Positions 30,080 through 54,109 of a stretch of DNA of 64,000 bases are shown here, piece after piece; the first letter of the stretch is position 1; each line of letters opens with the position of its first letter. The stretch is from contig JAISTX010000039.1 of NCBI GenBank assembly GCA_031272365.1, forward strand, positions 1-64,000, in the 5' to 3' direction. Below the pieces are notes generated by a model. The model had not been told where the DNA came from. It did no database searches and saw only the letters and a program-made list of their open reading frames with translations. A program made the position numbers and the translations under genes. The DNA comes from Eubacteriales Family XIII. Incertae Sedis bacterium (GTDB lineage Bacteria; Bacillota; Clostridia; Peptostreptococcales; Anaerovoracaceae).

Positions 30080-30088
30080 GTGCCTTCC

Positions 30089-32125: not shown

Positions 32126-32126
32126 A

Positions 32127-38740: not shown

Positions 38741-38767
38741 CTGCTCTTCCCTTCTGCCTGTTTTGCG

Positions 38768-40579
38768 TCAGATCGTGCCTTCTTCATAATAGGCGCGGCT
38801 CTCTTCGATTTGCTGTTGCACGCGCTCCGCCTCCTCGGCGACCTCGCGCACCGTCGCTTGCGCGATAATGGACTGGATGGTCAGCTCTTCAGGCACGAGC
38901 CCCTGCTTCCGCATTTGCTCCAGGATGCGCATGGCCGCGAGGCTGTTGCCGCCGAGCTCGAAAAAATCGGAGTCCCGGTATATCTCCCGAACGCCCAGCA
39001 CCTCCTGCCAGATTGCGGCGATTTCGCGTTCGGTTTCCGTCCGGCACTCCTCCCCTTTTCGCTCCGCGGCCATTTCGGCGAACAGGCGCGACATAGCTTT
39101 GCGGTCGACCTTGTGGTTCTCGTTCAGGATCAGCTCCGTTCGTTCCAAAAACACGGACGGGGCCATATAGGCCGGCAATTGCGCGCGCAAATGGCCGCGC
39201 AGCTCTTCCTGCGAGACCCGCACATCTTCACGCATGCAATAACAAAGCCCGATCTGCTTCCCGCCTTTCCTGTCGATCAGGACGGCCGCCGCGTCGCGTA
39301 TCGCGGGGTGGCTCTTTGCCTGCTCCTCGATCTCGCCCAGCTCAATCCGGTAACCGTTCAGTTTCACCTGGTCGTCCGCTCGCCCGAGGAATTCCACGTA
39401 CCCGGCTTCGCGGTACACCCCGTTGTCCCCGGTCCGGTACAACCTCCCCAGCGTCCCGCGGCAGACGAAGGCCTCGTCCGTTTTTTCCTTGTTGTTGATA
39501 TACCCCATGCCGACGCCGACCCCGCCGATGTATATCTCGCCTTCTTCGTCCGGGTCCGCCAGGCTTTGGTCCGCCCTCAGCACGTAGATGGACTGGTTTG
39601 GGAGCGGAACCCCGTACGGGATGCTCTTCCACGACGGGTCCACTGCGCCGACCCGGTAGAAAATCGACCAGATGGAGGCCTCGGTCGCGCCGCCGAGGCT
39701 CACGATCTCGGCGTTCGGGAACCGCTTTTGAACCCTTGGTATCAGCTCTTTTGGGATCCAGTCCCCGCTCAGCAGCACGGTTTTCATGGATGGGCACACC
39801 CAATCGTCGGGGCACCCCGCCAGCACCATGTGGAGGATGGACGGGACGGAGTTCCACAGGGTGATCCCCTGGCCCATCAGCTGCCCCCGTATCTGCCGGA
39901 CATCGCGCGCGTCTTTGGACAGCACAAGGCAGGCCCCTTTCGCCAGCATTGCCAGGATGTCGAACACGGACAGGTCGAACCCGAAGGAGGACACGCAGAG
40001 AATCCTGGACCGGCTGCCGACGCCGAACTCGTCGCATACGCTCTGCACCGTGTTGCTTGCGCTTTTGTGCGAGATCATCACGCCCTTCGGGAGCCCGGTG
40101 CTGCCGGATGTGAAAATGATATACGCAAGGGACGCCGGGTCCGGGCATGCGCCATCCTGCAAGTATTCCCTGCACCGGGCGGCCTGGATGCGTTCGGGGC
40201 GCAGCAGCGCCGCGCACGCGCTGGTGGTGAGCAGGTACTCTTTCCTTGCCTGCGGCAGATCCGGGTTGATGGGCACATATACGCACCCCGCCTTGAATAC
40301 GCCTATGATATTTGCAACGGTCCATACCGTCTTCTCCGCCTCTACCGCCACATGGCCGCCCGCCGGGACGCCCTGCTCCCTTATCCGGTTCGCGACTTCG
40401 CCGGAGATCCTGTCAAGCTCCTCGAACGTGAGCGTGTCGCTTGCGTCGCATACCGCCGTCTGCCCCGCGAAGCGCTTCATGGCATCAGCGACCATCTCCG
40501 TCACAGTCATTTCCGGGATGTCCCGGAAATTGTTATTGAAATTTTCCCAAAGCGATTCCGCCCGTCTCTGTTCTATCAT
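38768..40579 (-). CDS. Free-standing NRPS adenylation-PCP didomain
   Basis: A 603-residue A-PCP protein with no condensation domain. The A domain has FTSGSTGLPKGV, FDLSVFD, SGDWIP, GGATEASIWS and NHKVDRK. The hand-read specificity code is DLFNLSLIWK, one residue from the cysteine code. The PCP has ELGGNSLAAM (Ser546). Without its own C/Cy domain it must pair with a Cy in another protein; the orphan C-terminal Cy2 of the 2972-residue protein, followed by a decayed A domain, is the obvious partner. ATG 40579 overlaps the transporter stop (ATGA) and has AGG 4 bases upstream. Confidence 0.88.
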   Translation of the reverse strand: MIEQRRAESLWENFNNNFRDIPEMTVTEMVADAMKRFAGQTAVCDASDTLTFEELDRISGEVANRIREQGVPAGGHVAVEAEKTVWTVANIIGVFKAGCVYVPINPDLPQARKEYLLTTSACAALLRPERIQAARCREYLQDGACPDPASLAYIIFTSGSTGLPKGVMISHKSASNTVQSVCDEFGVGSRSRILCVSSFGFDLSVFDILAMLAKGACLVLSKDARDVRQIRGQLMGQGITLWNSVPSILHMVLAGCPDDWVCPSMKTVLLSGDWIPKELIPRVQKRFPNAEIVSLGGATEASIWSIFYRVGAVDPSWKSIPYGVPLPNQSIYVLRADQSLADPDEEGEIYIGGVGVGMGYINNKEKTDEAFVCRGTLGRLYRTGDNGVYREAGYVEFLGRADDQVKLNGYRIELGEIEEQAKSHPAIRDAAAVLIDRKGGKQIGLCYCMREDVRVSQEELRGHLRAQLPAYMAPSVFLERTELILNENHKVDRKAMSRLFAEMAAERKGEECRTETEREIAAIWQEVLGVREIYRDSDFFELGGNSLAAMRILEQMRKQGLVPEELTIQSIIAQATVREVAEEAERVQQQIEESRAYYEEGTI

Positions 40580-42336
40580 CGTGCCTCCCTCCATTGTTTT
40601 CCCAATTTCCACATGCTGGCCTGGTTTTGGAGCGCGAGCATGTGCGCGTACACGCCGTTCCCCGCGGCAAGCGCATCCGGTGCGCCCTGCTCGGCGACGC
40701 GGCCGTTTTCAAGCACGACGATCTTGTCCGCGCTTGATATCGTCCGCATCCTATGGGCGATGACGATCACCGTCTTGTCCCGGATCAGCGCGGACAGCGC
40801 CGACTGGATGCGCGTCTCGTTCTCCACATCGAGCGACGATGTCGCTTCGTCCAGCAATACGATCGGCGCATCTTTCAGCAGAGCCCGGGCGATCGAGATG
40901 CGCTGCCGCTCGCCGCCCGACAGGCGTTTGCCGTTTTCCCCGATCATCGTTTGATAACCGTTTTCTAGCCGGGCGACGAACTCGTCGCACTGCGCCACTG
41001 CCGCAGCGCGCAGCACCTCTTCATCGGTCGCCTCCTTTCGCCCGATGCGGATGTTCTCGAGAACCGTGTCGTTGAAGAGCACGACGTCCTGGAAGACCAC
41101 CGAGATATACCGCAGCAGCTTCTCCGGTATCACGGCCTGAATATCCACCCCCCCGATCGTGATCGACCCGCTGTCCGGGTCCCAGAAGCGGGCGAGCAGT
41201 TTCCCCACCGTGCTCTTCCCGCTGCCGGAAGGGCCGATGAGGGCAGTGACCTTCCCCTGCTCGGCGGAAAAGCCCACCTTTTCCAGGACGGCCTCGTTCT
41301 CTGCCAGATAGCGGAAGGACACATCTTCGAACTTCACGTCGAAGCGTTCGATGCTCACCTCCTCGTCCCCTTGCTGCTCGGGCTGGTCCATGATGGAGCG
41401 TATGCGCTCCGTCCGCACCGAAGTCCAGAAGATCACGGACAGGTATATGAAGGCCATGCCGATCGGGTCATAGATCCTCGACGCGATGACAAGGAAAACC
41501 AGGTATTTGAAAAAGCTGATCTCCCCAGAAGCGGCGAGGGCGCCGCCGTACAGGATCACGGTCGCAAACCCGAGCCGCAGGATGGACTGCGCCGCCGTGA
41601 CAAACATGCCGGACACCAGCTCGCTTTTCCGCCTGGCCTTTTCCGAGGCTGCCAGATGGCCGCGCAGTTTCCCGAAGACATTCTCGCCGCAATTGAACGC
41701 TTTGATCTCCGGGATGTTCTCGAGCATTTCCTGAATAGCCTCGGCGCAGCAGCGTTCATTTTGCGAAGAAATGGCTGTGCTTTGTTTTTGTTTCGCGGCT
41801 GACGCAACGATCAGGACCGCAGAAACGGGGAGGACCCACAAAAGCGCGCCTGCCATCCGCCAATCGAAAGCGATGACGCCTGCCGCCATGATCAGGGTGG
41901 ATACGGCGGCGCCGAACAGTTGCGGTATGGCATGCGAAAACGCGTGCTCCTGCTCTGTGCAGTCGGCCATGATTGCGGTCGTCAAATCCGTGACGTCCCT
42001 CCGGCTGAAAAATGACAGCGGCAGGACGCGCAGCTTTTCCGCAAGGGATATCCGCTTCATGGCGCTCTCTTTGTATGTTGCGATATAGACACAGCCGTAC
42101 TGCAGATACTGGGTGAGGAAGATGAGCGCCACGCACAAAATGGACAACCCGGCCCAAACCCAGAAACCCTGCCCTTCGCCCCCCGCCGTTTCAAAGCGCG
42201 CGATCGTTTCCTTCAGAAACCATACCAGCAAAAATATCGGAGCCATCAGCGCGATATTGGAGAAGACGCTGGACGCAATGCCCTTTTTCAGGTCTTTTGC
42301 GCCTTCGTCGCTGAGGGCAAAACGTTCCTTTAGCAT
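40576..42336 (-). CDS. ABC half-transporter, exporter fold (YbtQ/IrtB-like)
   Basis: A 586-residue TMD-NBD protein with six membrane segments (about 15-310) and an NBD with Walker [10 protein letters not shown], signature LSGGERQR and Walker B IVLLDEATSSLD. It is adjacent to, and overlaps by 7 bases, a second half-transporter, so the pair is probably a heterodimer. Tandem pairs of this fold in yersiniabactin and mycobactin loci (YbtPQ, IrtAB) import the ferric siderophore despite the exporter fold. Import is therefore plausible here; export is the alternative. Confidence 0.85.
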   Translation of the reverse strand: MLKERFALSDEGAKDLKKGIASSVFSNIALMAPIFLLVWFLKETIARFETAGGEGQGFWVWAGLSILCVALIFLTQYLQYGCVYIATYKESAMKRISLAEKLRVLPLSFFSRRDVTDLTTAIMADCTEQEHAFSHAIPQLFGAAVSTLIMAAGVIAFDWRMAGALLWVLPVSAVLIVASAAKQKQSTAISSQNERCCAEAIQEMLENIPEIKAFNCGENVFGKLRGHLAASEKARRKSELVSGMFVTAAQSILRLGFATVILYGGALAASGEISFFKYLVFLVIASRIYDPIGMAFIYLSVIFWTSVRTERIRSIMDQPEQQGDEEVSIERFDVKFEDVSFRYLAENEAVLEKVGFSAEQGKVTALIGPSGSGKSTVGKLLARFWDPDSGSITIGGVDIQAVIPEKLLRYISVVFQDVVLFNDTVLENIRIGRKEATDEEVLRAAAVAQCDEFVARLENGYQTMIGENGKRLSGGERQRISIARALLKDAPIVLLDEATSSLDVENETRIQSALSALIRDKTVIVIAHRMRTISSADKIVVLENGRVAEQGAPDALAAGNGVYAHMLALQNQASMWKLGKQWREAR

Positions 42337-44138
42337 TTGCCGCCCCTCCCGATTTTCCATTCCGCCGTTTGCAGATAGCTTTCCCACATCCCGGCGTAGA
42401 CTCCGTTCAAGGAAAGGAGCTCTTGGTGCGCGCCCCGCTCGACGACCTCACCCTTCTCCAAAACAAGTATTTCATCCGCGTCGAGGATTGTGGTCAAACG
42501 GTGCGCGATCACCAGCACGGTCTTGTCCTGCGTGAGACGCTGGATGGACCGCTGCATCTTGTGCTCGTTTTCCGGGTCGGAGTACGCCGTCGCCTCGTCC
42601 AGTATGACGATGGGGGCATTTTTCAAAATGCAGCGCGCAAATGAGATCCGCTGCATCTCGCCGCCCGACAGATACACGCCGTCGGGGCCGATCCGCGTTT
42701 CCAGGCCCGACGGCAGCTTGTCCATGATGTCACCGCACTGGGCTTGCTCCAGCGCCTGGTATATCTGCCCGTCCGCCGCCGACGGGTTTGCGACCAGCAG
42801 ATTTTCCCGGAGCGTGCCACGGAACAGGTGCGTGTCCTGAAACACAAAGGACATTTGCGCCATCAATTCGCTCGTCGCCATTTTGCATATCGGCTTCCCC
42901 CCGACCGTGATTTCGCCCGTGTCGGCATCCCAAAATCGTAGCAGAAGGTTCGCAATGGTCGATTTGCCGCTTCCGGATGGCCCCACCAAGGCTACGACTT
43001 GCCTCGGCCGGATCGAAAACGATATGCCGCGGACGCCCAGGCCTTCCGTCCCGGGGTAGCAAAAGCCTACGTTGCGGAACTCCACGCCCAAATCCTTGCC
43101 CGGATGCCTTGCGTTTTCCGCCGCGCCCCTGGGCACCGCTTCCGGTTCCGGCGCGCTTCTTTCGGACAGAATCCCCCCGATCCGGTTCAGGCTGTCCCGG
43201 ACGATCAGGATCGACTCTGACGAAAAAACGATCTTCGACATCATCACCGCGCAGACCGGCGTCAACAGCACAAAGAAGATGAAGTCGGCCAGAAATCCCC
43301 CGTAGTCGGCTTCATGCCTGATGATCAGGAATGACAGCGGTATCAGCACGGCAAACAGCCCGTTCACGCAAACATTGAATGCCGTCAAGGGGATCCGGCA
43401 TGACAAGGCGTAATCCATTACGAATTTTTTGTACTTCATAATGGATTCAAGAAAGCGGTTGAACGAGTAGATCGTTTGCTGGAATATCTTCACCACCGCG
43501 ATGCCCCGTACGTATTCGACAGCCTGCGCGTTCATCGACTCCAATGCACCCTGGTATTCGTCGAGCAGCCGGATCTTGGATGGCCCCATCATGGCAAACA
43601 TGCAGGCCAGCGCGCCGAACATGAGCGCAACGCATGCAAGCCCCAGCCGCCAATCGTTGGCGATGATCAGGACAAGGAAAACGACGGGCGTGGACAGCGC
43701 GCCGCAAAGATCAGGGAGGTTATGCGCAAGGAATGTTTCCGTCTGCGTTGAATTGTCCATGATGATTTTCCTTAGCTTCCCGCTCTGTGCCCTGACAAAA
43801 TACCCTACCGGCAGCGTCAGCAAATGCGCCAGCGCCTTTTCCCGCATATTCCTCGAAACGCGAAATGCTGCCGTGTGGGAGCACAGCAGCGCGAGAAAAT
43901 ACAAGACGATCGCGGCGATGGCATAGGCCATGGCAAAAATGCCGTAGCGGCCTACGGCATCCCCTGCCGGTTCCGGGTAGCGCTCAATCATCAGGCCAAT
44001 GAGTTTTCCGACGCACACGAACGGCATCAGGGACAATACCGCGCTCCCTGCCGATAAGACGCAGGATAGAACAATCATAGGTTTTAGCTCGCCCGCAAAA
44101 GCAAAAAGTTGCCGGGCCGAATTGCTTCGGCTGTCCAT
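42330..44138 (-). CDS. ABC half-transporter, exporter fold (YbtP/IrtA-like)
   Basis: A 602-residue TMD-NBD protein with six membrane segments (about 20-300), Walker [10 protein letters not shown], signature YLSGGEMQR and Walker B IVILDEATAYSD. It is the first gene of the operon, with AAGGAG 6 bases before ATG 44138 and a strong promoter and large palindrome just upstream. IrtA-type proteins carry an additional N-terminal siderophore-interacting reductase domain; none is present here, so reductive iron release would need another protein. Confidence 0.85.
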   Translation of the reverse strand: MDSRSNSARQLFAFAGELKPMIVLSCVLSAGSAVLSLMPFVCVGKLIGLMIERYPEPAGDAVGRYGIFAMAYAIAAIVLYFLALLCSHTAAFRVSRNMREKALAHLLTLPVGYFVRAQSGKLRKIIMDNSTQTETFLAHNLPDLCGALSTPVVFLVLIIANDWRLGLACVALMFGALACMFAMMGPSKIRLLDEYQGALESMNAQAVEYVRGIAVVKIFQQTIYSFNRFLESIMKYKKFVMDYALSCRIPLTAFNVCVNGLFAVLIPLSFLIIRHEADYGGFLADFIFFVLLTPVCAVMMSKIVFSSESILIVRDSLNRIGGILSERSAPEPEAVPRGAAENARHPGKDLGVEFRNVGFCYPGTEGLGVRGISFSIRPRQVVALVGPSGSGKSTIANLLLRFWDADTGEITVGGKPICKMATSELMAQMSFVFQDTHLFRGTLRENLLVANPSAADGQIYQALEQAQCGDIMDKLPSGLETRIGPDGVYLSGGEMQRISFARCILKNAPIVILDEATAYSDPENEHKMQRSIQRLTQDKTVLVIAHRLTTILDADEILVLEKGEVVERGAHQELLSLNGVYAGMWESYLQTAEWKIGRGGKC

Positions 44139-44151
44139 AAATCTCTCCTTC

Positions 44152-44189
44152 GTAACATGGTTGTTAGCATTGACTAACAACCATGTTAC
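44152..44189 (-). promoter_or_regulatory. Perfect 16-bp inverted repeat over -10 and leader of the metallophore operon
   Basis: GTAACATGGTTGTTAG (44152-44167) and its exact reverse complement (44174-44189) flank a 6-base loop. It covers the -10 box, the likely +1 and the leader up to the ribosome site. Its centre (44163-44178) matches the 16-bp palindrome of the other promoters at 13 of 16 positions. It could be an operator, an RNA hairpin over the leader, or both. Confidence 0.8.
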
Positions 44190-44211
44190 CTTCTCCTTTC
44201 TTTCTTGTCAA
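44183..44211 (-). promoter_or_regulatory. Promoter of the metallophore operon
   Basis: On the - strand, a perfect -35 TTGACA (44206-44211) and TAACAT (44183-44188) are 17 bp apart. A 13/16 variant of the shared palindrome (44207-44222) overlaps the -35, and a second variant lies at the start region, so a repressor could block polymerase at both. Confidence 0.75.
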
Positions 44212-44222
44212 CCTATGCTAAC
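44207..44222. promoter_or_regulatory. Variant copy of the 16-bp palindromic box (-35 region)
   Basis: GTCAACCTATGCTAAC matches GTTAGCATATGCTAAC at 13 of 16 positions, with an intact right half. It overlaps the -35 of the metallophore operon promoter. Confidence 0.55.
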
Positions 44223-44236
44223 AAATTTATTTTTTC

Positions 44237-45094
44237 TTACGCCCCCTGCCTCCTGCGGCGGAGATACAGGAAGACGAGTGCCGCCGCTGCGGCGGCCGCC
44301 GCCGCTATGAGCGGGAAGAGCCAGCCCGGGGGCGATGCCGAGCCTTCCGCCCCGGCCTCCGCCGCGCCCGCTGCGGGGCTTCCTACGAGCGGCGTTTTGC
44401 CGTCGCCGATGGCGATGCCCTCCGGCTCCGCCGCTGCTTCCGTGCCTGCCCCGGTTTCCGGCGCAGCGACATCCGCCACATCCAATTCAATAACGGTCTG
44501 CTTCGCCGCGTTGCCACCCGCGAGGTTGACGACGGCTTTCGACGCGGTCGCGGATGCCGACGTGCCGCCGCTGCCGGAAGAGGAAGCGCCGCCGCCGGAG
44601 GATGCCGCCTCGCCGCCGGCGGCCTTGCGCGTGATTTTCACGAGCGTGTCGGGGTTGCTTTTCACCGTGTCGACGCGCAGCGAGTCGCCCTCCCCGGAAA
44701 CGGTGTGCACGCGCACCTCGCTGAACAGGATGCTCTCGGGCGCATCCCCGCTGTATGTAAAAACGAGGTTGCCGAAATGGACAGCGCCGTTTTCGGGCAC
44801 ATAGCGGTTGTCCGTCGAAAAGCAGCCGACGTAGCGTTTGTCCCCGATCGCCGTTTCGGTCTTGTTCTCGAGGTTTTCCGCCGGCTCGAAGCGGACGTAG
44901 GCGAGGCCGGGCGACGCGCTGTATTCAATCTCGGCGCCCGCGATGGCGCCGGCAGCGGGCACGGTGACGGGGATGCTGACCGTGGAGGCGCCCGAAGGCG
45001 CCTCCACGGCATATGCAGGCCCTACCGCAAACGCCCCGGCAAACAGGAGCACCGAAGCCAGGATGCCGAAGAATCTTGTTCGATAGGCTTTCAT
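44237..45094 (-). CDS. Membrane-anchored, cohesin-like surface protein
   Basis: A 285-residue predicted surface protein: signal peptide (FFGILASVLLFAGAFAVGPAYA), then a beta-rich domain (about 35-160) beginning STVSIPVTVPAAGAIAGAEIEYS, which resembles the start of a cohesin. A Ser/Gly/Ala-rich linker (about 165-255) leads to a C-terminal membrane helix ending in RRRR, a membrane anchor. It lies 19 bases downstream of the dockerin protein gene, with GGAGGG before ATG 45094. A membrane cohesin next to a secreted dockerin protein suggests that the two bind each other. The cohesin assignment is by eye and moderate. Confidence 0.55.
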   Translation of the reverse strand: MKAYRTRFFGILASVLLFAGAFAVGPAYAVEAPSGASTVSIPVTVPAAGAIAGAEIEYSASPGLAYVRFEPAENLENKTETAIGDKRYVGCFSTDNRYVPENGAVHFGNLVFTYSGDAPESILFSEVRVHTVSGEGDSLRVDTVKSNPDTLVKITRKAAGGEAASSGGGASSSGSGGTSASATASKAVVNLAGGNAAKQTVIELDVADVAAPETGAGTEAAAEPEGIAIGDGKTPLVGSPAAGAAEAGAEGSASPPGWLFPLIAAAAAAAAALVFLYLRRRRQGA

Positions 45095-45113
45095 AGGATT
45101 CTGCCCTCCTTGC

Positions 45114-47699
45114 TTAACCATACAGGTGGTTGATGATCAGGATGAAGTCCGCAAGGTCGATCACCCCGTCCTCGTTGACGTCGATGCCGCGTTCGGCCAC
45201 CGTGCCCCACGCATCGCCGCCCGCTTCCTCGCTCGCGCGGTAGTACTGCTGCGCGAAGGCCAGGTCCGCGAGGCTTACCTTCCCGTCCCGGTTGAAGTCC
45301 CATGCGTCAAAGCGGATGTCCGTGGCTACGGTCGCCGCGTCCCCTTCCGGCACGAGGACATCCACGTCCTGCTCCGGCGTCGCGCCGGTGGCGGACTTCA
45401 GCGTCACCCGCGCTTCGCCGGCCGTTTGCGCCTTGAAATGGAGCGTCAGCACATCCTGCGCCGCTTCGATGCCCGTGGGCTTGGACGCGCCGAGCACGAT
45501 CTTCTTCGGCGTGCCGTCCGCGTTCTTCAGGACGGTCACGTAGTCGAAGGCCGTCCCGGCCACTTCGGCACCTGTAAATTCCAGATTGCCCGAGTATTCG
45601 ATGTCGGGGATGAGTGTCCGTATGTCGCCCAGATCCGCCGCTTTGACGGTATAGTCGATCGTCGCCCCCGCCGCACTTTCTGCGGGACCCGTGAGGGAGA
45701 GCGCCGGCTTCGCCGTCGCCGCGATCACGTCCAAATAGTACACCTGGTTGTCGAAACCCGCCGACACGAGCGTCAGCACATAGCTGCCCCCGGCCTTGAA
45801 CACGTCCGCGGCGAGGTTGATGGCGTATGTGCCGTCGTCCCCTTTGGCCAGGGCCGCGCCGGCCGCCACCGCCGCGCCGCCGTCTTCGGCGATGGTGCTG
45901 TACCCGCTCCGGCCGGATGTGACGATGCCCGTCGCGAAGGTGTCGTTGCCGAAGTAGATCTTTGTGCCTTTTTCCACCGTCAGCGGGGCGTCCTGCGTAT
46001 AGCCTTCCGCGTAGGCGGAGCCCGGTGCGCCCTGCTCCTTTAGCAGCTTCACGCGCTCCGTGCTCTTCAGCGTGAAAGTGAGCGTCTTGGAGATCACACT
46101 GTCCGTTTCATACGCGATGCTGTAGCTGCCCGGCCAGGACCCGTCCGCGAACAACGCCTTCTTCAGGCTGAGGGCAGCGGTCCCGCCCGCGCCGGCCTTG
46201 AGGGAATAGGCGGAAGCGGCGACTTCCTCGCCGCCTTTGAGCAGCTTCGCGCCCGAGGCGTAAGCGTCCGCGTCTGTCAGCCCTTTCAGGTTGACGGTGG
46301 CGGGCGTCGCGGCAGACGTGCTGGTGACCGGGATCGTCGTGGCTCCGTCGATGGCGGCCGCGCTGTTGATGTACTCCTTCACGTCGAACGAAAACGTCAC
46401 ATCCTCAAAACCCTGCACGTAGACGACGACCGTCCAGGTGTCCGCCGGGTTGAGGCTCTTGAACCGCTCAAAGCGCGAGGGCGATATGGCCACGTCGAAG
46501 TCCTCGTGCATGCGGTGCGTGAAGAGGTTTAGGTGCGGGAGCAGCGGTTCCGTGTGCCCGTCCGAATCTGCGATCAGCCCGCCGTAAATATTATTCGCAA
46601 AATTGTCCCAGTAGTTTGCGCCGGAGAATTCCTCGCCGAGCGCGGCCGCGTCCCCGAAGGAGAAGCCCGTGACGATGTCGCCCCAGTTGCCGCCGTAGGA
46701 GACGCCCTCGGCCGAGCCGCCGTTGCCGAGCCCGGGGAGGCTGCGGCCCGCGGAGGCGTTTACGATTTCCCGCGCGCCGTAGTTCCCGTCCGTCAGCAGC
46801 GGCAGCGCGGCGTAGAGGCCGAGCGATTCCGCCTCCGTCCCGTCCGCCGCGAGGATTTTGCCGGCGGCGGCGATGTTCACTGTGCGGGCGCCTTCCTGCG
46901 TGAGTTTTGCGAGCACGTTCGACGACTGATCCGTCGCCTTGCCGGCCTGCTCGAGCAGCGAGGCGTTTGCGAGCAGGTCGAAGTCCGCCTTCACGCCGGC
47001 TTCCTTGATGCCGGTGATCGCGGAGGTCGGGTCGGTGTTCGACTGGCGCTCGCCGGTGAGCGTGAGGTTGCCGTCCATCGCAAAGTGCACCGTGTCGCCG
47101 TAGGTGGCCGTCGAGACCGCGTCGACTTTTTCTAGCGCGTCCCCCTCCTCGTACGTGGGCGTGTCGACGCCGCCAACGACATTGCCGCTGCGCGTGCCCT
47201 GCGTCACGAAGAGCGCGGGCGCGGCGACCGTGCCGCCCGGCGCAAATGCCGTGTCCGTCGAGAGCACCCCCGTCGGCTGGATGCTATAATAGAATTCGCT
47301 GAACTTCATCGGTACAGCGGCATAGACGGTATCAGGCGCGGCGCGGCCGGGTTCCGCAAAATGGAGCGTTGTTGCAACCGCTGCTCCGTCCGCGGATTTG
47401 ATCTCGAGCGCCGCCTCCGTCTTCCCCGGGATTTCGATCTTCACGAGCGACCCGTCTTTCAGCACGGGCGTCGCTTCGGCCGGCTCCCCGTCCACTGTGT
47501 AGCTGACATCCCCTGTCAACCCATCAGGGTTTACGATGACATAGTTGACGCTGTAGGATGTGCCGGGGATGGTGACGGTGCTTTCGTCGGCGGTCACGCC
47601 GATCCCCTGCGGCGCGACGGACGCATAGGCCGGCGCGAACGGCGCCATGGCCATCAGTGCGGACGCAAATAGCGTCAAAAACCTTTTTGGTAGTCTCAT
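45114..47699 (-). CDS. Large secreted protein with cohesin-like domain and C-terminal dockerin
   Basis: An 861-residue protein with a signal peptide (about 1-30). A long N-terminal region of beta-rich domains contains a His-rich stretch (HLNLFTHRMHEDFD) and may be distantly related to Tp47-type domains. A cohesin-like domain (about 660-790) and a dockerin at the C-terminus follow; the dockerin has two calcium-loop repeats (DFNRDGKVSLADL and DVNEDGVIDLADF). Start ATG 47699 has AGGAG 6 bases upstream. Its promoter's -10 sits inside the perfect 16-bp palindrome, so it probably belongs to the metal-responsive set. A receptor role for metal, haem or metallophore is a hypothesis only. Confidence 0.6.
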   Translation of the reverse strand: MRLPKRFLTLFASALMAMAPFAPAYASVAPQGIGVTADESTVTIPGTSYSVNYVIVNPDGLTGDVSYTVDGEPAEATPVLKDGSLVKIEIPGKTEAALEIKSADGAAVATTLHFAEPGRAAPDTVYAAVPMKFSEFYYSIQPTGVLSTDTAFAPGGTVAAPALFVTQGTRSGNVVGGVDTPTYEEGDALEKVDAVSTATYGDTVHFAMDGNLTLTGERQSNTDPTSAITGIKEAGVKADFDLLANASLLEQAGKATDQSSNVLAKLTQEGARTVNIAAAGKILAADGTEAESLGLYAALPLLTDGNYGAREIVNASAGRSLPGLGNGGSAEGVSYGGNWGDIVTGFSFGDAAALGEEFSGANYWDNFANNIYGGLIADSDGHTEPLLPHLNLFTHRMHEDFDVAISPSRFERFKSLNPADTWTVVVYVQGFEDVTFSFDVKEYINSAAAIDGATTIPVTSTSAATPATVNLKGLTDADAYASGAKLLKGGEEVAASAYSLKAGAGGTAALSLKKALFADGSWPGSYSIAYETDSVISKTLTFTLKSTERVKLLKEQGAPGSAYAEGYTQDAPLTVEKGTKIYFGNDTFATGIVTSGRSGYSTIAEDGGAAVAAGAALAKGDDGTYAINLAADVFKAGGSYVLTLVSAGFDNQVYYLDVIAATAKPALSLTGPAESAAGATIDYTVKAADLGDIRTLIPDIEYSGNLEFTGAEVAGTAFDYVTVLKNADGTPKKIVLGASKPTGIEAAQDVLTLHFKAQTAGEARVTLKSATGATPEQDVDVLVPEGDAATVATDIRFDAWDFNRDGKVSLADLAFAQQYYRASEEAGGDAWGTVAERGIDVNEDGVIDLADFILIINHLYG

Positions 47700-47759
47700 C
47701 ATGCTCTCCTTTCTTTGTAAGAGATGAAATAACCGAACTGCAATAGATTGTCTGTCGAA

Positions 47760-47775
47760 GTTAGCATATGCTAAC
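47760..47775. promoter_or_regulatory. 16-bp palindromic operator box, copy 1
   Basis: A perfect GTTAGCATATGCTAAC palindrome. On the - strand it contains the -10 (TATGCT, 47763-47768) of a promoter whose -35 TTGACG (47786-47791) is 17 bp upstream. A protein bound here would directly block transcription of the dockerin protein gene. Confidence 0.8.
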
Positions 47776-47807
47776 ATCACAACAGCGTCAATCCCGCAAT
47801 CGGACAT

Positions 47808-48395
47808 TTATTGAGGCGGCCTTCTGTTTGATTGGATGCGAAGCGCGCGGATCTTCGGGAGCGCGCATTTCACGAGGACGCCCGTGAGCACGCCGCTGGC
47901 GGCACCGAGCAGGGCGGGGACCGGCAGCATCGCGAGCAAGGAGGCGTTGTGGATCACGGCGGCGGCCGCGAGGTACTGCCCCACGACATGGAGGGTTGCG
48001 CCGGCCGCGCTGACAGCAACGGGGGCTTTGACCCATTTCAGCAGCAGCCACATCGCCAGGAAGCTGAGCATCGAGCCGGAGAGGCTGTAGAGGAAGGAGG
48101 ACATGCCGCCGGCGAGCGCGGCCATCAATGCGCATTTCAGGAGGGCAAGGCACAGTGACGTGCAAGGCCGGAAGAGGTAGAGCGAGAGGAGGATGACGGC
48201 GTTCGACAGGCCGAGGTGGACGCCCGGCACGGTGAGGCTCAGGGGGATCTGCCGCTCGATATAGCCGACGACGGCGATGATGGCGAGGAAGACGCCGACC
48301 AACGCGACGTCTCTTGCAAGCGGCTTCCCGGGCGCGGGGCGCGCTGCGCTTTCCGTGTGGCCGGTGCGTTCAGCCCGCAACGGTGTCCGCACCAA
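47808..48395 (-). CDS. Gx-family transporter (Hpre_diP_synt_I domain)
   Basis: A 195-residue membrane protein with about five hydrophobic segments. IERQIPLSLTVPGVHLGLSN and the SLSGSML stretch match the Gx transporter family (pfam name Hpre_diP_synt_I). These are ECF-like membrane proteins often encoded beside ApbE and FMN-binding or NusG_II proteins, and they may supply a flavin or quinone precursor. Start TTG 48395 overlaps the apbE gene and has GGAAGG upstream; GTG 48392 is the alternative. Transport substrate unproven. Confidence 0.75.
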   Translation of the reverse strand: MVRTPLRAERTGHTESAARPAPGKPLARDVALVGVFLAIIAVVGYIERQIPLSLTVPGVHLGLSNAVILLSLYLFRPCTSLCLALLKCALMAALAGGMSSFLYSLSGSMLSFLAMWLLLKWVKAPVAVSAAGATLHVVGQYLAAAAVIHNASLLAMLPVPALLGAASGVLTGVLVKCALPKIRALRIQSNRRPPQ

Positions 48396-49746
48396 GGTCC
48401 GCGCCTTCCTCGATTTTGATGACGAGGCTGTGCGGCAGGCAGACGATCATGTCGCCGGCCGCCGCATGCGCGCCCATTTGGACGCAGGTCTGGTTTGCGC
48501 AGTTCGCCTCCGCGACGCGGACGCTGCCGCCCTCGACCAAAATCCTGTTTTCCATCCCGTCCCGCTCGAAGACGTACTCCCGGTCCTGCCCGAGGCGCAG
48601 CGTTTTCACGGGCTCGTTTTCGTAGTACACGACCGCGACGCCCTCTTCCTGCGGAAGCGTGAAGCGGTCGTCCGCGGGGGAGACGACGCCGATCAGCCCA
48701 GCCGTGACGTGGATCGTACCGTCCGCCGTGATGAACACGCCCTCGGCCTCCGGGATGGAGTCGAGCAAGGCCATGCCCCGGTCCAACCCGAGGACGAAGC
48801 AGGCCGTCGACAGGCCGTCCGCCAGCGTGGAGGACGGCGCCACGATGGACACCGACAGCAGATTGCCCTCCACCGGGTAGCCGGTGGCCGGGTCGAGGAT
48901 GTGGTGGTAGATCACACCGCCCTCTTCGAAAAATTTCTGGTACCCGCCCGAAGTCACGACGGCGGCGTCCATGGCCGGCACCGTGCACGCGACCGACCCG
49001 TCGCCCGGGTAAGGCGACGCGATGCCGATCGTATACGCCTCCCCGCCGGGCTTCGCGCCGAGGGCGTATACGTTGCCCCCGAAGTCGAGCAGCGCCGAGG
49101 ACACGCCCTGCCCCCGCAGCGCTTCCGCCGCGCGGTCGCAGGCGTAGCCCTTCGCGATCGCGCCGAGATCCAGCCGCGTCCCCGGGAACGCGAGGCGGAC
49201 CGTCCCGTCCGCACGCAGCTCCACGTTCCCCGCGCCTGCGCCGGGGCGCGCCGCAGCGATCTCTTCCGCGGACGGCAGGCGCGCAAACGCGCCGTCCTCT
49301 TTCCAAAGCTCCGTGAGCCCCCCGATGGCGGGGTCGAACGCGCCGCCGGAGAGCTCCGCAATCCGCAGCGCCTCTTCGAGGATTGCATACGTGCCCTCCG
49401 AAACAGGCACGGCCGCCCCGAAGCCGCTTTCGTTGACGCGGGAAATCTCGCTGTCCGGGCGGTTCACCGACATCGCCTCATCCACTTCCGTGGCCGCGGC
49501 AAACGCTGCTTCGAATGCCGCGCTTCCGGGCTCGGCGCCGCGCCCGTATACCGTGACCGTCACCACGGTGCCGAGCAGGCCGGTCCGCGATTCGGAAACG
49601 GGCGCGGCAGGCGCGGCGGCGGCCTCGGGCTCTTTCACGGCGGCTCGCGAAGCCCCGCTCGGCGCCGCGCAGGCGGCGAGCAGCAGCAGGGCTGTTATTG
49701 CCATGGGCAATAGGGAGGCGGGCGTCGCGGCATTTCGTTTCAACAT
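48370..49746 (-). CDS. apbE: ApbE FAD:protein FMN transferase fused to NusG_II domain
   Basis: A 458-residue lipoprotein. The signal ends in ALLLLAACAAP (Cys lipidation). The ApbE domain (about 50-345) has SVNRPDSEISRVNE, FDPAIGGLTELW, RLDLGAIAKGYACDRA and HHILDPATGYPV; the family covalently attaches FMN to Thr of extracytoplasmic FMN-binding proteins. A C-terminal NusG_II-like domain (about 360-450) has NCANQTCVQMG and CLPHSLVIKI; this domain is often separate from ApbE. The start overlaps the AraC gene by 7 bases. No obvious flavinylation target gene is in the window. Confidence 0.85.
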   Translation of the reverse strand: MLKRNAATPASLLPMAITALLLLAACAAPSGASRAAVKEPEAAAAPAAPVSESRTGLLGTVVTVTVYGRGAEPGSAAFEAAFAAATEVDEAMSVNRPDSEISRVNESGFGAAVPVSEGTYAILEEALRIAELSGGAFDPAIGGLTELWKEDGAFARLPSAEEIAAARPGAGAGNVELRADGTVRLAFPGTRLDLGAIAKGYACDRAAEALRGQGVSSALLDFGGNVYALGAKPGGEAYTIGIASPYPGDGSVACTVPAMDAAVVTSGGYQKFFEEGGVIYHHILDPATGYPVEGNLLSVSIVAPSSTLADGLSTACFVLGLDRGMALLDSIPEAEGVFITADGTIHVTAGLIGVVSPADDRFTLPQEEGVAVVYYENEPVKTLRLGQDREYVFERDGMENRILVEGGSVRVAEANCANQTCVQMGAHAAAGDMIVCLPHSLVIKIEEGADLGADTVAG

Positions 49747-50123
49747 CGCGCCCTTTCCCAAGCGGGGGCTTCCGCGGCCGTCTTGCGGTATTCGCTCGGG
49801 CGGACGCCCGTGACTTTACGGAAGGCGGCGGAAAAGGCGCTGGGCTTCTGGTAGCCGACCATCGCGGCGATGGCGTGCAGCGGGATCTCCGTCTCGCGGA
49901 TCAGGCGCTTGGCCTTCTCGACGCGCGACTGCGAGACGTAGGCGTGGATCGTGCTGCCGCAGACGAGGCGGAAGCAAAATTTCAATTTCGTCGGGCTCAT
50001 GTGGGCGAAGCGCGCCAGCCGCGCGATCGTGACCGGCTCCGCGCAGTTCGACTCGATGTGCGCGCGCAGCGCCTCGATCTGCGCCCTGTCCTCCTGCTTG
50101 ATTTCGTAGCTCTCCCCGTACAA
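49740..50123 (-). CDS. Small AraC-family regulator (HTH only)
   Basis: A 127-residue protein made almost entirely of the AraC/XylS DNA-binding domain: two helix-turn-helix units (ARLARFAHMSPTKLKFCFR and HAIAAMVGYQKPSAFSAAFRKVTG) ending with the RPSEYR signature. No ligand-binding domain. I favour a TTG start at 50123, with GGGAGGG 7 bases upstream; an ATG at 50171 lies inside the palindromic operator and has no ribosome site. Yersiniabactin loci use an AraC protein (YbtA) with ferric siderophore as signal, so this is a candidate activator of the metallophore operon. Confidence 0.8.
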   Translation of the reverse strand: MYGESYEIKQEDRAQIEALRAHIESNCAEPVTIARLARFAHMSPTKLKFCFRLVCGSTIHAYVSQSRVEKAKRLIRETEIPLHAIAAMVGYQKPSAFSAAFRKVTGVRPSEYRKTAAEAPAWERARC

Positions 50124-50163
50124 CCCTCGGCCCTCCCGCTTCTCTGCGAATTGACACTTATTT

Positions 50164-50179
50164 GTTAGCATATGCTAAC
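50164..50179. promoter_or_regulatory. 16-bp palindromic operator box, copy 2
   Basis: A perfect GTTAGCATATGCTAAC palindrome, 11 bp downstream of a TATAAT -10 (- strand, 50191-50196), so it covers the transcription start of the AraC-ApbE-Gx operon. Confidence 0.8.
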
Positions 50180-50190
50180 TACTTGGTTGC

Positions 50191-50196
50191 ATTATA
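50191..50196 (-). promoter_or_regulatory. -10 element of the AraC-ApbE-Gx operon
   Basis: A perfect TATAAT on the - strand, about 70 bases upstream of the preferred AraC start; no good -35 is visible, which would fit a promoter that needs an activator. Confidence 0.5.
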
Positions 50197-50244
50197 GCAC
50201 AGGCTGCCAATCGGGAAAGCCCTATTCGGACTTTTTTTCGTGCT

Positions 50245-51294
50245 CTATGCGTTTGCCTTGCAGCGCTCGATGTACGCCCGCGTCAGCGCCACGCGCGTGC
50301 CGTCGCCCTTGGCGAGGTGCGTGAACCCGGCCTGCCACAGCATCTCGCGGCACGCCGTCACGTCCAGCCCGCGTCCGCGCGCCGTGTCGGCGGCCGTGTC
50401 GCGGGGGTTGACGCCGGTCTCCGCGCAGATGCTGTTGGCCCCGCTGGCGAGGCTGACCGGGTCCGCCTCGTGCACGGGGATCCACGGGTACGGGTCGAGG
50501 GCCATGACGGCCAGCGCGTTGACGGCGACGATCTGAGCGAGCCGGGCGTTCGTGATCTCGTCGGTGAACACGGTGCCCGGGACGGGCGTGCGCTTCATGA
50601 CGCCTGCGGTGTCGAAGCCGCCCGCGATCGTCGCGAAGATATGGTCGACCAGCTCCTCCGGCGTGTGCTCCGTCCCGATCGGCTCGAGGCAGTCCTGAAG
50701 CATCAGCCCCGCGCGCCGCGCCGCCTCGATGGTCTCGCGCCGGCGCGCCGGCGGGATCGCCGTGTACGTCCCCTCCCCGAGCCGGACGACGTGGTAGGCC
50801 CCGTCGGCGCCCGCCGCTTTCAGCTTGACGAAGGTTTCGTAGTCGGTGTCCCCGATGTTTGTGTACAGAAGCGTCTGCGGCGGCGCCGTCTCCCGCGCGA
50901 TCTCCACCGCCCGCAGATAGTAGCCCAGATCGTATTTGTCCATCGTCATGAGCCAGAGGCAGTACAGGTCGCCGTCCTTCGTGAAGTCGTGCACCTTCTG
51001 CCGGATCTCCTCCTCGCCCAGCGTGATCTTCCCCGAAAACCCCGTATGCGTCTTGCCGAACGCGCAAAATTTGCAGTCCGCCTCGCAGGGGTAGAGCTCC
51101 AGCCCGACCTGCCCGAACAGTAGCCCCGTGTTGCCCGTCTTCCCGCGCGCCACGGTGTCGGCGGCGGCCCTGGTCCACGCCGCTTCCGGCGCGTGCTCCG
51201 GGAAACCGAGCAAATAGACGCACTCCTCCCGCCCCGGCGGCGTACCCTCCAGCGCGCGCTCCAAAATCTGCCTGACCCTCTGTTCCATCACCAT
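50245..51294 (-). CDS. Radical SAM enzyme, BioB-like
   Basis: A 349-residue radical SAM protein. CEADCKFCAF supplies the CxxxCxxC ligands of the 4Fe-4S cluster (about residues 65-75). The surrounding sequence, with YTNIGDTDYETFVKLKAAGADGAYHVVRLGEG and the later GANSICAETGVNPRD, resembles the biotin synthase/HydE/PylB-like group. No other biotin gene is nearby, so biotin synthase is not assured. ATG 51294 has AAAGG 4 bases upstream; ATG 51288 is the alternative. The leader is about 220 nt long and holds a 61-bp tandem repeat. Confidence 0.72.
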   Translation of the reverse strand: MVMEQRVRQILERALEGTPPGREECVYLLGFPEHAPEAAWTRAAADTVARGKTGNTGLLFGQVGLELYPCEADCKFCAFGKTHTGFSGKITLGEEEIRQKVHDFTKDGDLYCLWLMTMDKYDLGYYLRAVEIARETAPPQTLLYTNIGDTDYETFVKLKAAGADGAYHVVRLGEGTYTAIPPARRRETIEAARRAGLMLQDCLEPIGTEHTPEELVDHIFATIAGGFDTAGVMKRTPVPGTVFTDEITNARLAQIVAVNALAVMALDPYPWIPVHEADPVSLASGANSICAETGVNPRDTAADTARGRGLDVTACREMLWQAGFTHLAKGDGTRVALTRAYIERCKANA

Positions 51295-51317
51295 GCATCC
51301 TTTCCATATCCGCCCGT

Positions 51318-51465
51318 GCGCAGCGCCACAGCGCCGGCGCAAACCCCGAGCGGCCTCAGCCTTCCCGTTGCCGCAAACGCGCAGCGCCACAGCCCCGGCA
51401 CAAACCCCGAGCGGCCTCAGCCTTCCCGCTGCCGCAAACGCGCAGCGCCACAGCCCCGGCACGCG
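51318..51465. repeat. 61-bp tandem repeat, about 2.4 copies
   Basis: Units starting at 51318, 51379 and 51440 (each begins GCGCAGCGCC) are nearly identical over 61 bp, with the third incomplete. It lies between the promoter and start of the radical SAM gene. The period is not a multiple of three, so it does not encode a repeated peptide. Confidence 0.85.
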
Positions 51466-51517
51466 CACGCCGCCATATTCCGGCTCCCGGCCGGCCCGCA
51501 AGTATTATTATTATTGA

Positions 51518-51546
51518 AGCATACACTGAATATCGAAATATTTCAA
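51518..51546 (-). promoter_or_regulatory. Promoter of the radical SAM gene
   Basis: On the - strand, TTGAAA (51541-51546) and TATGCT (51518-51523) are 17 bp apart in an AT-rich pocket. The transcript would carry the 61-bp repeats in its leader. Confidence 0.5.
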
Positions 51547-51577
51547 TATAATAACCCGCCGCTACGCACAACATTCG

Positions 51578-51658
51578 TCCGATGTAGGACTTGTTGCAAG
51601 GACACCCCCGTTTTCCGGCATTCATAAGGCGATTTCGTGCAACAACCCCCACATCGGA
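51578..51658. repeat. ~80-bp imperfect palindromic element, copy A
   Basis: TCCGATGT (51578-51585) pairs with ACATCGGA (51651-51658) and TTGTTGCA (51591-51598) with TGCAACAA (51638-51645). It shares the outer GTAGGACTTGTTGC and an inner CGTTTT ... AGGCGATT core with copy B at 53274-53354, in the same orientation. One copy lies on each side of the AbiEi/DUF559-type gene. Confidence 0.75.
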
Positions 51659-51701
51659 CACATCTATTGACATTTTCATAGAATTTCGAGAGAATAGTCG
51701 A

Positions 51702-53063
51702 ATGAGGAAGCTGCTGTTTTCATCGAGGAAAAACGACACGGCGCCGCGGAAAGCGCTGCGGGGCGACGCGTACACACGGCTGTTCCGGGGGGCGGCAGTC
51801 GAACGGGCCTGGTGGAAATCCTTGCGGCCGAGCGGCCAGCACGTGGTGCGCGCGGCGGCGCTGGGCGGGCTCCGGCCGGGATGGGTGCTGACAAAGCTGA
51901 GCGCCGCAGCTGTGCTCGGGGCGCAGATCAAAACCTGCCCCTCCGAGATCACGTGCGCGGCGGCACCGGGGAAGGGCCGGGCTTTCACGGAACTGCCCGG
52001 GGTGCGGGCGGGCTTGCTGCCGCCGCACGCCAAGGTCGTCCGGCAGGCCGTCGCGGTCGAGGCGGGCGCGGAAGTGGCCGTCCTGTGCACATCGCCCGCC
52101 TGCACCATGTTCGACGTGGCCGCATCGTGCCCCCTCGACGAGTCCCTCGTCGTCATCAACTCGCTGCTTGCGAAAGCCTCCGCGGACGCGGCGCGGTCGG
52201 AGGCGCTCAAGAAAGAGGCCGATATGCTGAAGGGCCTGCATCCCATCGTGGACGCAAGCAAGCTGGCCCGCCAGGAGTCGTTTGACTATCTTCGCATGTC
52301 CGCTGCGGAGGTCGAAGCGGAAGCCGGGCGGCTCATGCGGGAGAACGGGCGCGCGCTGCGGGCAGGCGGGCGGCAGTTTTGCCGGCAGGGAGCCCGCCGG
52401 GACGAGCTCGCTGCAGGGACCGCCGCCGCGCTGCTGGGCGCAAAGTCGTTCCGGGCATTCCGCTCCCAGGTCGATCGCTACCGGCAGCACGGTTTGAACA
52501 CCAAGACCGCCGCCGGCCTGTACGAGGAATGCCTCGCGCTTGTATGGAAAAACCGCCGGAGATTCGGCGTGCGGCGCGCGCTGCTCGCTTTGCTGTTCGC
52601 GACGGACCAGTGCGAGTCCGCCGCCGAGAGCCTCTCCTGCGCACGGTTTTTCGAACTGGGCTTCTCACAGCCCACGCTGCAAGTCGAGTTCCTCGCGGCG
52701 GACTCCGGAAGGGCGGTCTACCGCGTCGACGGCGCGTGGGATCTGCGGGAGACGCCGCGCGGGAAAGCCCGGGGCCCGTTCCCTGACGCCGTCGTTTTGG
52801 GCGCGCCCGCGCCCCCGGCCTCCAAACAAGCGCTGCTCTTCGAATTTGACGGCGCGGCCAAATACCGAGACCCGGAAATGCTGCGGGGTCGCGACCGGGG
52901 GGATGTCCTGGCCGCCCAAATCCGGCGCGAAGCGGACCTCCGCGAAAAGGGCTACGAAATCGTCCGCGTCATTTGGGGCGACCTCAACCCGCCGGCCGGC
53001 CTCGCGCGGAAACTCAGCCGCTTCGACATCCCGCGGCTCCGGCTTCGGAAGCGGAAGCGCTGA
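51702..53063 (+). CDS. AbiEi/DUF559-type protein with PD-(D/E)XK nuclease-like C-terminus
   Basis: A 453-residue protein. The C-terminal ~150 residues contain FEFDGAAKYRDPEMLRG, READLREKGYEIVRVIWGDL and conserved spacing typical of the DUF559/Vsr-like endonuclease tail found on AbiEi-like proteins. The upstream region has an AbiEi-antitoxin-like middle (LGGLRPGWVLTKLSAA ... LPPHAKVVRQAVAV). A possible role is nuclease-linked defence or a toxin-antitoxin partner, but no toxin gene adjoins it. ATG 51702 has only a weak ribosome site; an earlier in-frame start (51591) lies inside palindromic copy A. The gene stands alone between two copies of the same repeat, suggesting an acquired unit. Confidence 0.55.
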   Translation: MRKLLFSSRKNDTAPRKALRGDAYTRLFRGAAVERAWWKSLRPSGQHVVRAAALGGLRPGWVLTKLSAAAVLGAQIKTCPSEITCAAAPGKGRAFTELPGVRAGLLPPHAKVVRQAVAVEAGAEVAVLCTSPACTMFDVAASCPLDESLVVINSLLAKASADAARSEALKKEADMLKGLHPIVDASKLARQESFDYLRMSAAEVEAEAGRLMRENGRALRAGGRQFCRQGARRDELAAGTAAALLGAKSFRAFRSQVDRYRQHGLNTKTAAGLYEECLALVWKNRRRFGVRRALLALLFATDQCESAAESLSCARFFELGFSQPTLQVEFLAADSGRAVYRVDGAWDLRETPRGKARGPFPDAVVLGAPAPPASKQALLFEFDGAAKYRDPEMLRGRDRGDVLAAQIRREADLREKGYEIVRVIWGDLNPPAGLARKLSRFDIPRLRLRKRKR

Positions 53064-53383
53064 CCCCGCGCCCCGCATTCACCCACCCATTTTCCAACAA
53101 CACACACGCAGAACTGCCAAGGGCTTTGCGCGGAAATGCGCCCATGCACGCACTCCCGCATTGCCAGGCAAATCGGTGGGTGCGCTTCTTTGCGGGGCGC
53201 TTCCCCACCGTGGTGCTTCCCCACCGGCGCGCGCCTTCACGAGGGCGGCAGCCACCGTTTCCGGACTTGGTGCGTCCGGTGTAGGACTTGTTGCGCAAAT
53301 TTCGCCGTTTTTCGAGCGAATCAGGCGATTCTCGGCAACAAGTCCCACAAGCGGCGCATATTATTGAATAATATAACGCTTGC
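53064..53383. other. Intergenic region with repeat copy B, no gene
   Basis: This gap between the DUF559-type gene and the flavodoxin holds a GC-rich stretch with two CTTCCCCACCG copies (about 53200-53225) and the palindromic element copy B. I see no supported coding sequence. Confidence 0.6.
53274..53354. repeat. ~80-bp imperfect palindromic element, copy B
   Basis: GTAGGACTTGTTGC (53281-53294) pairs with GCAACAAGTCCCAC (53335-53348) with one mismatch. The inner sequence CGTTTTTCGAGCGAATCAGGCGAT parallels copy A, though only 14-base arms are compared here. It could fold as a cruciform, a REP-like element or a terminator at the end of the flavodoxin transcript. Confidence 0.75.
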
Positions 53384-53803
53384 TCATCCTGCGAGCCCGG
53401 CCCCGAACGCCTTGCAGCGGCCAGCCTCCTCGCCGGCCGGCGCCTCGTTGACGATGAGCCCGTCGCCGAGGACGTCCGCGCCGGCGTCCCGCGCGCGCTG
53501 CACCCAGTTGCGCATCCACTCTCCGTCGCCCCAGCCGTACGAGCCGAACAGCGCGAGCTTGCGGCCGGCCAGCTTGCCCTCGACGGAGGAAAACCACGGG
53601 TCGAACTCCGTTTCCTCGAGTTCCTCCGCGCCCATCGACGGGCAGCCGAGCGCGAGCACGTCACAGTCCAGATCCGCGTCCGTCGCCCCCGATACCGTTT
53701 TTGCGGCAACCTCCGCGCCGCCGCTTTCCGCGCCCTCCCGGATCAGCCCGGCCATCGCCTCCGTGTTGCCCGTGCCGCTCCAATAAATGATGTTGATCTT
53801 CAT
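53384..53803 (-). CDS. Flavodoxin
   Basis: A 139-residue cytosolic FMN electron carrier. The N-terminal phosphate-binding loop YWSGTGNTEAMA, the ALGCPSMGAEELEE loop and LFGSYGWGDGEWM loop contact the FMN. Length is typical of short-chain clostridial flavodoxins. It would replace ferredoxin when iron is scarce, which fits the perfect palindromic box upstream of this two-gene operon. It lies 21 bases downstream of a small unknown gene. Confidence 0.92.
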   Translation of the reverse strand: MKINIIYWSGTGNTEAMAGLIREGAESGGAEVAAKTVSGATDADLDCDVLALGCPSMGAEELEETEFDPWFSSVEGKLAGRKLALFGSYGWGDGEWMRNWVQRARDAGADVLGDGLIVNEAPAGEEAGRCKAFGAGLAG

Positions 53804-53824
53804 GACCCTACGACTCCTTTCTGT

Positions 53825-54061
53825 TCAAAAAACCTTTACGATCTCATTGGCCGCGTCCGCGCGCGCCTGGTCGATCCTGCCGCAGAGCGCGCGCGCCGAT
53901 TCCGTATCGTGGTATACCTTCCAAAGCGCGTTCAACGCGTAGCCCTGCCCCCCGTTTTCGATGAACGCCGCCTCGTGCGCCGCCGCGTACAAAAACTGCA
54001 TCCGGAGCCGCTCGCAATCAGGCGCCCCCCGCACGTATTCCTGGAACTCAAACTTGCCCAT
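53825..54061 (-). CDS. Small protein of unknown function, flavodoxin operon
   Basis: A 78-residue, probably helical cytosolic protein without a family I recognise. It has one Cys pair positioned far apart and no signal peptide. The start at ATG 54061 is supported by GGGAGG 7 bases upstream. It is the first gene after the palindromic box and precedes flavodoxin, so it is probably co-induced with it. Confidence 0.6.
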   Translation of the reverse strand: MGKFEFQEYVRGAPDCERLRMQFLYAAAHEAAFIENGGQGYALNALWKVYHDTESARALCGRIDQARADAANEIVKVF

Positions 54062-54093
54062 CTCAAAGCCTCCCTTATCACGCAAGACACGGT

Positions 54094-54109
54094 GTTAGCA
54101 TATGCTAAC
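54094..54109. promoter_or_regulatory. 16-bp palindromic operator box, copy 3
   Basis: A perfect GTTAGCATATGCTAAC palindrome 18 bp downstream of a TATAAT -10 (- strand, 54128-54133), in the leader of the small gene-flavodoxin operon. Confidence 0.8.

Follow-up and report, generated by a model that had tools for sequence, protein, structure and literature searches.

A conserved palindrome before metallophore, flavodoxin and ferrous-iron transport genes, probably the operator of a short DtxR-family iron regulator in Anaerovoracaceae

The metallophore locus and its palindromes

The window analysed here, i.e. a stretch of 64,000 nucleotides (contig JAISTX010000039.1, positions 1 to 64,000, assembly GCA_031272365.1) from an Eubacteriales Family XIII. 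Incertae Sedis bacterium of the Anaerovoracaceae, contains a metallophore operon (19840-44138) with what we read as a yersiniabactin-like gene set, including a reductase of the Sacchrp_dh_NADP type and more than one AMP ligase. Next to it lie a gene for a large dockerin protein, an AraC-ApbE-Gx operon and a DUF3793-flavodoxin operon, and all the genes concerned are on the minus strand (Table 1). The first ABC protein has its nearest named relatives, at 38-49 % identity, in taxa as far apart as Bacteroidales, Adlercreutzia, Paenibacillus and Methanogenium, which suggests that such genes may have spread horizontally. A tandem repeat (51318-51462; 61-bp unit, 2.4 copies, 96 % matches) is found 5' of a radical-SAM gene.

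Table 1. Genes, boxes and predicted promoter elements of the window
Feature	Position	Strand	Remarks
NRPS, PKS/NRPS, reductase, AMP ligase, thioesterase and phosphopantetheinyl transferase genes	19840..40612	-	metallophore operon
Second exporter-fold ABC protein	40576..42387	-	metallophore operon
Exporter-fold ABC protein	42330..44138	-	first gene of metallophore operon; GGAGAG ribosome-binding site before start codon
Perfect inverted repeat	44152..44189		arms 16 nt, gap 6 nt; variant box 44163 is the core, -10 hexamer in one arm
Variant box, 13/16	44163..44178		TTAG-N6-CTAA intact; over presumed start point of metallophore operon
Promoter-like TTGACA-17-TAACAT	44183..44211	-	metallophore operon; predicted from sequence
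Variant box, 13/16	44207..44222		over -35 of metallophore promoter
294-aa protein of unknown family	44237..45121	-	C-terminal hydrophobic segment and basic tail; behind dockerin gene
Large protein, C-terminal dockerin domain	45114..47702	-	start placed at ATG behind ribosome-binding site
Exact box	47760..47775		holds -10 of dockerin-protein promoter
Gx-type protein	47808..48395	-	Hpre_diP_synt_I family
ApbE flavin transferase	48370..49761	-	with NusG_II domain
AraC-type DNA-binding domain protein	49740..50171	-	no sensor domain; longest frame, true start probably further in
Exact box	50164..50179		5' of AraC-ApbE-Gx, shortly after TATAAT
Flavodoxin	53384..53803	-	
DUF3793 protein	53825..54085	-	short form
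Exact box	54094..54109		5' of DUF3793-flavodoxin

The 16-base palindrome GTTAGCATATGCTAAC, hereafter the box, is present in three exact copies (47760, 50164 and 54094) and in two variants with three mismatches (44163 and 44207), and a scan of the window allowing up to three mismatches gave no match beyond these. Dinucleotide shuffles of the window yielded a mean of 0.07 matches within three mismatches, and never five. When the whole genome was searched (2.92 Mb in 88 contigs, around 89 % complete, 63 % G+C), the same three perfect copies were recovered, every one inside the window, while 0.00014 perfect copies are expected genome-wide from composition. All positions given in an earlier note, made from the sequence of the window alone, were thereby reproduced; its remark that there is no other perfect copy extends to the genome, and the motif is not scattered at random.

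The same note had placed the two variants at the start and over the -35 of the metallophore promoter, and the -10 of the dockerin-protein gene inside box 47760. This agrees with the predicted promoters, i.e. TTGACA-17-TAACAT, which has box 44207 on its -35 and box 44163 on its presumed start point, and TTGACG-17-TATGCT (47791-47763), the TATGCT of which sits within box 47760. TATAAT hexamers are found around 15-20 bp upstream of boxes 50164 and 54094.

Boxes at ferrous-iron transport operons and in related genomes

Further sites in the genome were sought with three mismatches to the box, or as GTTAGC-N4-GCTAAC with one mismatch, and few were found. Both feoAB operons of the genome have boxes directly upstream. 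On contig C40, GTTAGCGTATGATACC precedes feoA-feoB, and a TTGATG-17-TATGAT promoter can be read there with its -10 within the box, while on contig C81 two boxes make up a perfect inverted repeat with arms of 21 nt just 5' of the second feo operon. Ferrous-iron transport operons are the best available marker of iron control, and the box had been defined without regard to them. The predicted regulon thus extends beyond the window locus, and of the four-promoter regulon proposed in the earlier note the window promoters stand, whereas the number four is too low, considering that boxes also precede two feoAB operons. A candidate member is the gene of a 324-aa alpha/beta hydrolase, which has GTTAGCTATTGCTAAC 20 bp 5' of it (contig C26, 1201-1216). 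Two sites with three mismatches, on contigs C34 and C87, were taken as chance matches, one being AT-rich before a regulator-like gene and the other lying within a coding frame.

A congener carries the exact box at the start of its feoA-feoB genes. With at most one mismatch, the box was found in 83 of 297 genomes of the family, as compared with three for the reversed pattern; the same site precedes ferrous-iron uptake genes in dozens of related genera, with the spacing of the half-sites conserved across genera. At 50 of 71 loci examined, the box adjoins feoAB, DUF3793, FMN-binding, ABC, AraC, ZIP, DtxR or other listed iron and flavin gene classes, a count that describes rather than tests, since these classes were set up after the neighbours had been read. 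Its strong part is the share of feoB, which was met at 21 of the loci even though a genome has only around one to five feoB copies; the other neighbours were feoA (18), DUF3793 (10), FMN-binding (five), exporter-fold ABC (four), AraC and DUF2325 (three each), ZIP and DtxR (two each), and Dps and flavodoxin (one each). In other families of the class, the exact box occurs in 12 of about 383 genomes and the reversed pattern in none; among the neighbours, as read by eye, are flavodoxin or DUF3793 in three genomes, genes of the siderophore-ABC type, one exporter-fold ABC gene and FeoA.

That TTAG-N6-CTAA resembles the iron boxes of DtxR and IdeR, and that siderophore-like and flavodoxin genes are targets of iron limitation, had been proposed from the window; both proposals gain from the occurrence of the same box before feoAB genes (twice in this genome, in the congener and in relatives) and before DUF3793/flavodoxin, siderophore-type, ABC, AraC and ZIP genes elsewhere.

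DUF3793 genes, often together with flavodoxin, recur behind the box class-wide (in the window and at eight other loci), and an iron-sparing role is possible. In the literature library searched, there was no description of the box motif and nothing relevant on DUF3793 with flavodoxin. At eight loci of relatives, the gene behind the box codes for a large protein with a signal-peptide-like start, in some cases similar to the dockerin protein of the window (locus L060), which hints at iron-regulated surface proteins. In another genome, cysK and an ABC transporter gene have a box between them.

Among 84 boxes of relatives, TTGACA-like hexamers peak 11 bases (11 cases) and 16 bases (five cases) upstream of the box, with no more than three cases at any other of 60 offsets; given a 17-bp spacer, the -10 would at these two offsets fall at the end of the box or in its middle. 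At the iron-uptake genes, the box accordingly overlaps predicted promoters or start points, a placement that, as predicted, has the geometry of a repressor site, and IdeR boxes have likewise been described over the -10 or the start point (PMC10317159).

Perfect inverted repeats with arms of 16 and 21 nt lie right before the ribosome-binding site at the metallophore and second feo promoters (the latter at locus L082, 1500-1550), and both are longer than one dimer site needs. Such repeats could be taken to act in RNA, as hairpins or attenuators, and the box as a whole to be a dispersed repeat element rather than a protein site. We consider this very improbable: the 16-mer is rare in the genome and not dispersed, its half-site spacing is kept across genera, and, with the -10 inside the repeat at box 47760 and at the metallophore promoter, the RNA would lack one arm. 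For the long inverted repeats, a hairpin reading was dropped because the -10 falls within them.

A candidate regulator and its recognition helix

The earlier note had stated that the binding protein is not visible, which is true of the window but not of the genome, where a candidate can be named. One match to Fe_dep_repr_C marks the sole DtxR-family protein, while a profile search for the Fur family (PF01475) gave no match, both in an assembly that is around 89 % complete. The candidate has 123 aa (contig C45, locus L010, 1513-1884), is encoded divergently from cysK and matches PF01325 and PF02742, i.e. a winged-helix N-terminal domain and a helical dimerisation domain, after which it ends, so that the C-terminal SH3-like domain is absent. 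Its AlphaFold model (pLDDT 90.5) matches MntR, DtxR and IdeR, with TM values of 0.81-0.87 against 2h09, 1ddn, 2it0 and 2f5f. No recognisable box precedes the dtxR gene of this genome itself; boxes do lie 5' of dtxR-family genes in five other genomes (one of these genes being a diverged paralogue), and a further genome has a box between dtxR and feo. A count by eye over 119 genomes places dtxR within around 3 kb of feoB in about two dozen. In each of two near-complete genomes, one box occurs without a clear DtxR, and this single match may be due to chance. Taken together, it is very probable that an iron-sensing switch protein docks at the palindrome, and the only Cys-type DtxR of the genome is most likely its binder.

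The kind of target genes would suit Fur equally well, and a Fur-family protein is present in many relatives. Nevertheless, a Fur-family operator is the reading that we find hardly credible at all, considering that such a match is absent from this genome, short of a gene in the missing tenth of the assembly, and from near-complete genomes that carry the box (e.g. G036, G040 and G052), and that the Fur half-site is of the GATAAT type, which the box does not contain.

At the metal positions, the candidate has Asn8, Glu11, His77, Cys99, Glu102 and His103 (B. subtilis MntR numbering), of which the Cys, Glu and His do not vary among 22 relatives. Of the soft-ligand pair of IdeR and DtxR (Met10 and Cys102), the Cys is present, while the Met position is occupied by Asn here and by Met, Asn or Asp in relatives; a Cys at the primary metal site of DtxR and IdeR raises the selectivity for Fe(II) (PMC10317159). 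Judged by predicted domains and ligands, the regulator would therefore be a short Cys-type DtxR that is neither IdeR nor MntR proper.

This mixture also bears on a reading of the box as the site of a manganese-responsive or mixed-metal switch of the MntR type instead of an iron switch, which we regard as unlikely. The candidate has the short two-domain form of MntR from B. subtilis and Escherichia coli, with which it shares Glu11, His77, Glu102 and His103, and Asp or Asn is often found at position 8; the core of the E. coli MntR box is also TAGC-N4-GCTA, and ZIP transporter genes lie behind the box in two genomes. Since the position-8 ligands vary (Asn, Met, Asp), a response to Mn(II) is possible. 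In Porphyromonas gingivalis, PgMntR likewise belongs to the DtxR family and has mixed Mn/Fe ligands (Asp, Cys, Glu, His), and with Asp and Cys at these places it binds its promoter better with Mn; unlike the candidate, it has two FeoA domains, regulates a manganese transporter and does not bind the feoB1 promoter (PMC4805248). However, the candidate differs from MntR proper by Cys instead of Glu at position 99, which favours Fe(II) (PMC10317159), and the targets are mostly feoAB, flavodoxin and siderophore-type genes, with no manganese transporter (mntH or a Mn ABC system) recognised among the loci read.

Compared with the single-dimer site of IdeR, i.e. TTAGG-N4-CCTAA within the actinobacterial DtxR/IdeR iron box (TTAGGTTAGSCTAACCTAA; PMC10317159), the box TTAGC-N4-GCTAA has the same 4-bp spacing and the same TTAG and CTAA, but its fifth base is C instead of G, the first base of CCTAA being correspondingly G, and it would form one dimer site, not two overlapping ones. 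In IdeR, the one direct hydrogen bond comes from Gln43 of the recognition helix and goes to the first C of CCTAA (PMC8464063, PMC10317159). Within the family studied here, some genomes have Arg at position 43, as the candidate does, and others have Val, Ile or Tyr. Of 52 genomes with Arg43, 34 carry the box, as do two of 41 without it (Fisher, 5e-10, kinship ignored). When palindromes upstream of feoB were sought without a preset sequence, TTAGC-N4-GCTAA emerged in 21 of 47 Arg43 genomes and TTAGT-N4-ACTAA in seven of 22 Val/Ile43 genomes (21:2 versus 0:7, p 1.8e-5, kinship ignored), and no shared feo palindrome emerged among ten Tyr43 genomes. These p-values overstate the case, since the covariation is largely that of one clade on the DtxR tree, where Arg43 takes around six changes, so few of them well supported that a test of independent pairs has no power. 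A more independent check comes from the 12 box genomes outside the family (eight other families), for the choice of which only the box was used: every one of them encodes a Cys99 DtxR with Arg43, a count to be read against the frequency of Arg43 in the class.

Arg43 may thus contact the changed base. On the other hand, IdeR Q43A binds as well as the wild type, and IdeR, for which indirect readout is reported, was not significantly affected when T replaced C as the first base of the repeat (PMC8464063); residue 43 therefore need not set the preference, and the residue-43 rule is put forward as a hypothesis. Regardless, the link between this DtxR subfamily and the box does not depend on that rule alone.

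The AraC-type protein is itself encoded behind box 50164, within the regulon, and could be imagined to bind the box as an autoregulated operator in a local siderophore circuit like that of YbtA. Genes for AraC proteins also lie behind boxes in three other genomes, and the best named-regulator matches of the protein include Btr (bacillibactin transport) and RhrA (rhizobactin). Even so, we judge this quite improbable: the majority of boxes precede feoAB or flavodoxin genes in genomes without a nearby AraC gene, the protein is a lone DNA-binding domain without a sensor domain, AraC-family members usually bind direct repeats and not perfect palindromes, and across genomes the box follows the recognition helix of DtxR. 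The yersiniabactin cluster, which is controlled by Fur and YbtA, combines NRPS/PKS genes, a gene of the AraC type and a pair of exporter-fold ABC genes with repression by iron. The window resembles it in these genes and in apparent iron repression, and differs in the lack of a Fur match in its genome, in its DtxR-type box and in a lone-domain AraC protein linked to ApbE and Gx; an outer-membrane receptor, as in that cluster, was not found here.

Proposed iron switch and its meaning

We consider it likely, on the combined sequence evidence, that the box is the operator of an iron-responsive DtxR-family repressor, most likely the 123-aa Cys-type protein, with Fe(II)-dependent shut-off of the operons behind it. 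With enough Fe(II), a DtxR dimer would sit on TTAGC-N4-GCTAA and cover the -35, the -10 or the start point, so that the metallophore, AraC-ApbE-Gx, dockerin-protein, flavodoxin and two feoAB operons would be off; a drop in iron would release DtxR and lead to the joint expression of all of them. In this DtxR-type iron regulon with a putatively shifted operator, the change of one base per half-site (first C of CCTAA to G) would pair with the replacement of Gln by Arg at position 43. By analogy, the system would work like that of IdeR, with which it also shares the siderophore and iron-uptake targets, the predicted regulator fold and the Cys of the primary metal site.

One may tentatively go further, although we lean slightly against it, and suppose a class-wide iron switch of anaerobes that is able to replace Fur, i.e. 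a short Cys-type DtxR in which residue 43 sets a shift of the operator by one base in each half-site (GCTAA for Arg, ACTAA for Val or Ile, CCTAA for Gln), so that its regulons could be predicted from the sequence of the regulator.

If the proposed switch is real, many anaerobes that lack Fur, or that have no assigned iron regulator, would have a readable signal of iron regulation, and a single switch would govern a metallophore cluster, an ApbE/Gx operon, a large secreted-type protein, flavodoxin and ferrous-iron uptake. The DtxR family would, in addition, gain a rule leading from protein to operator.
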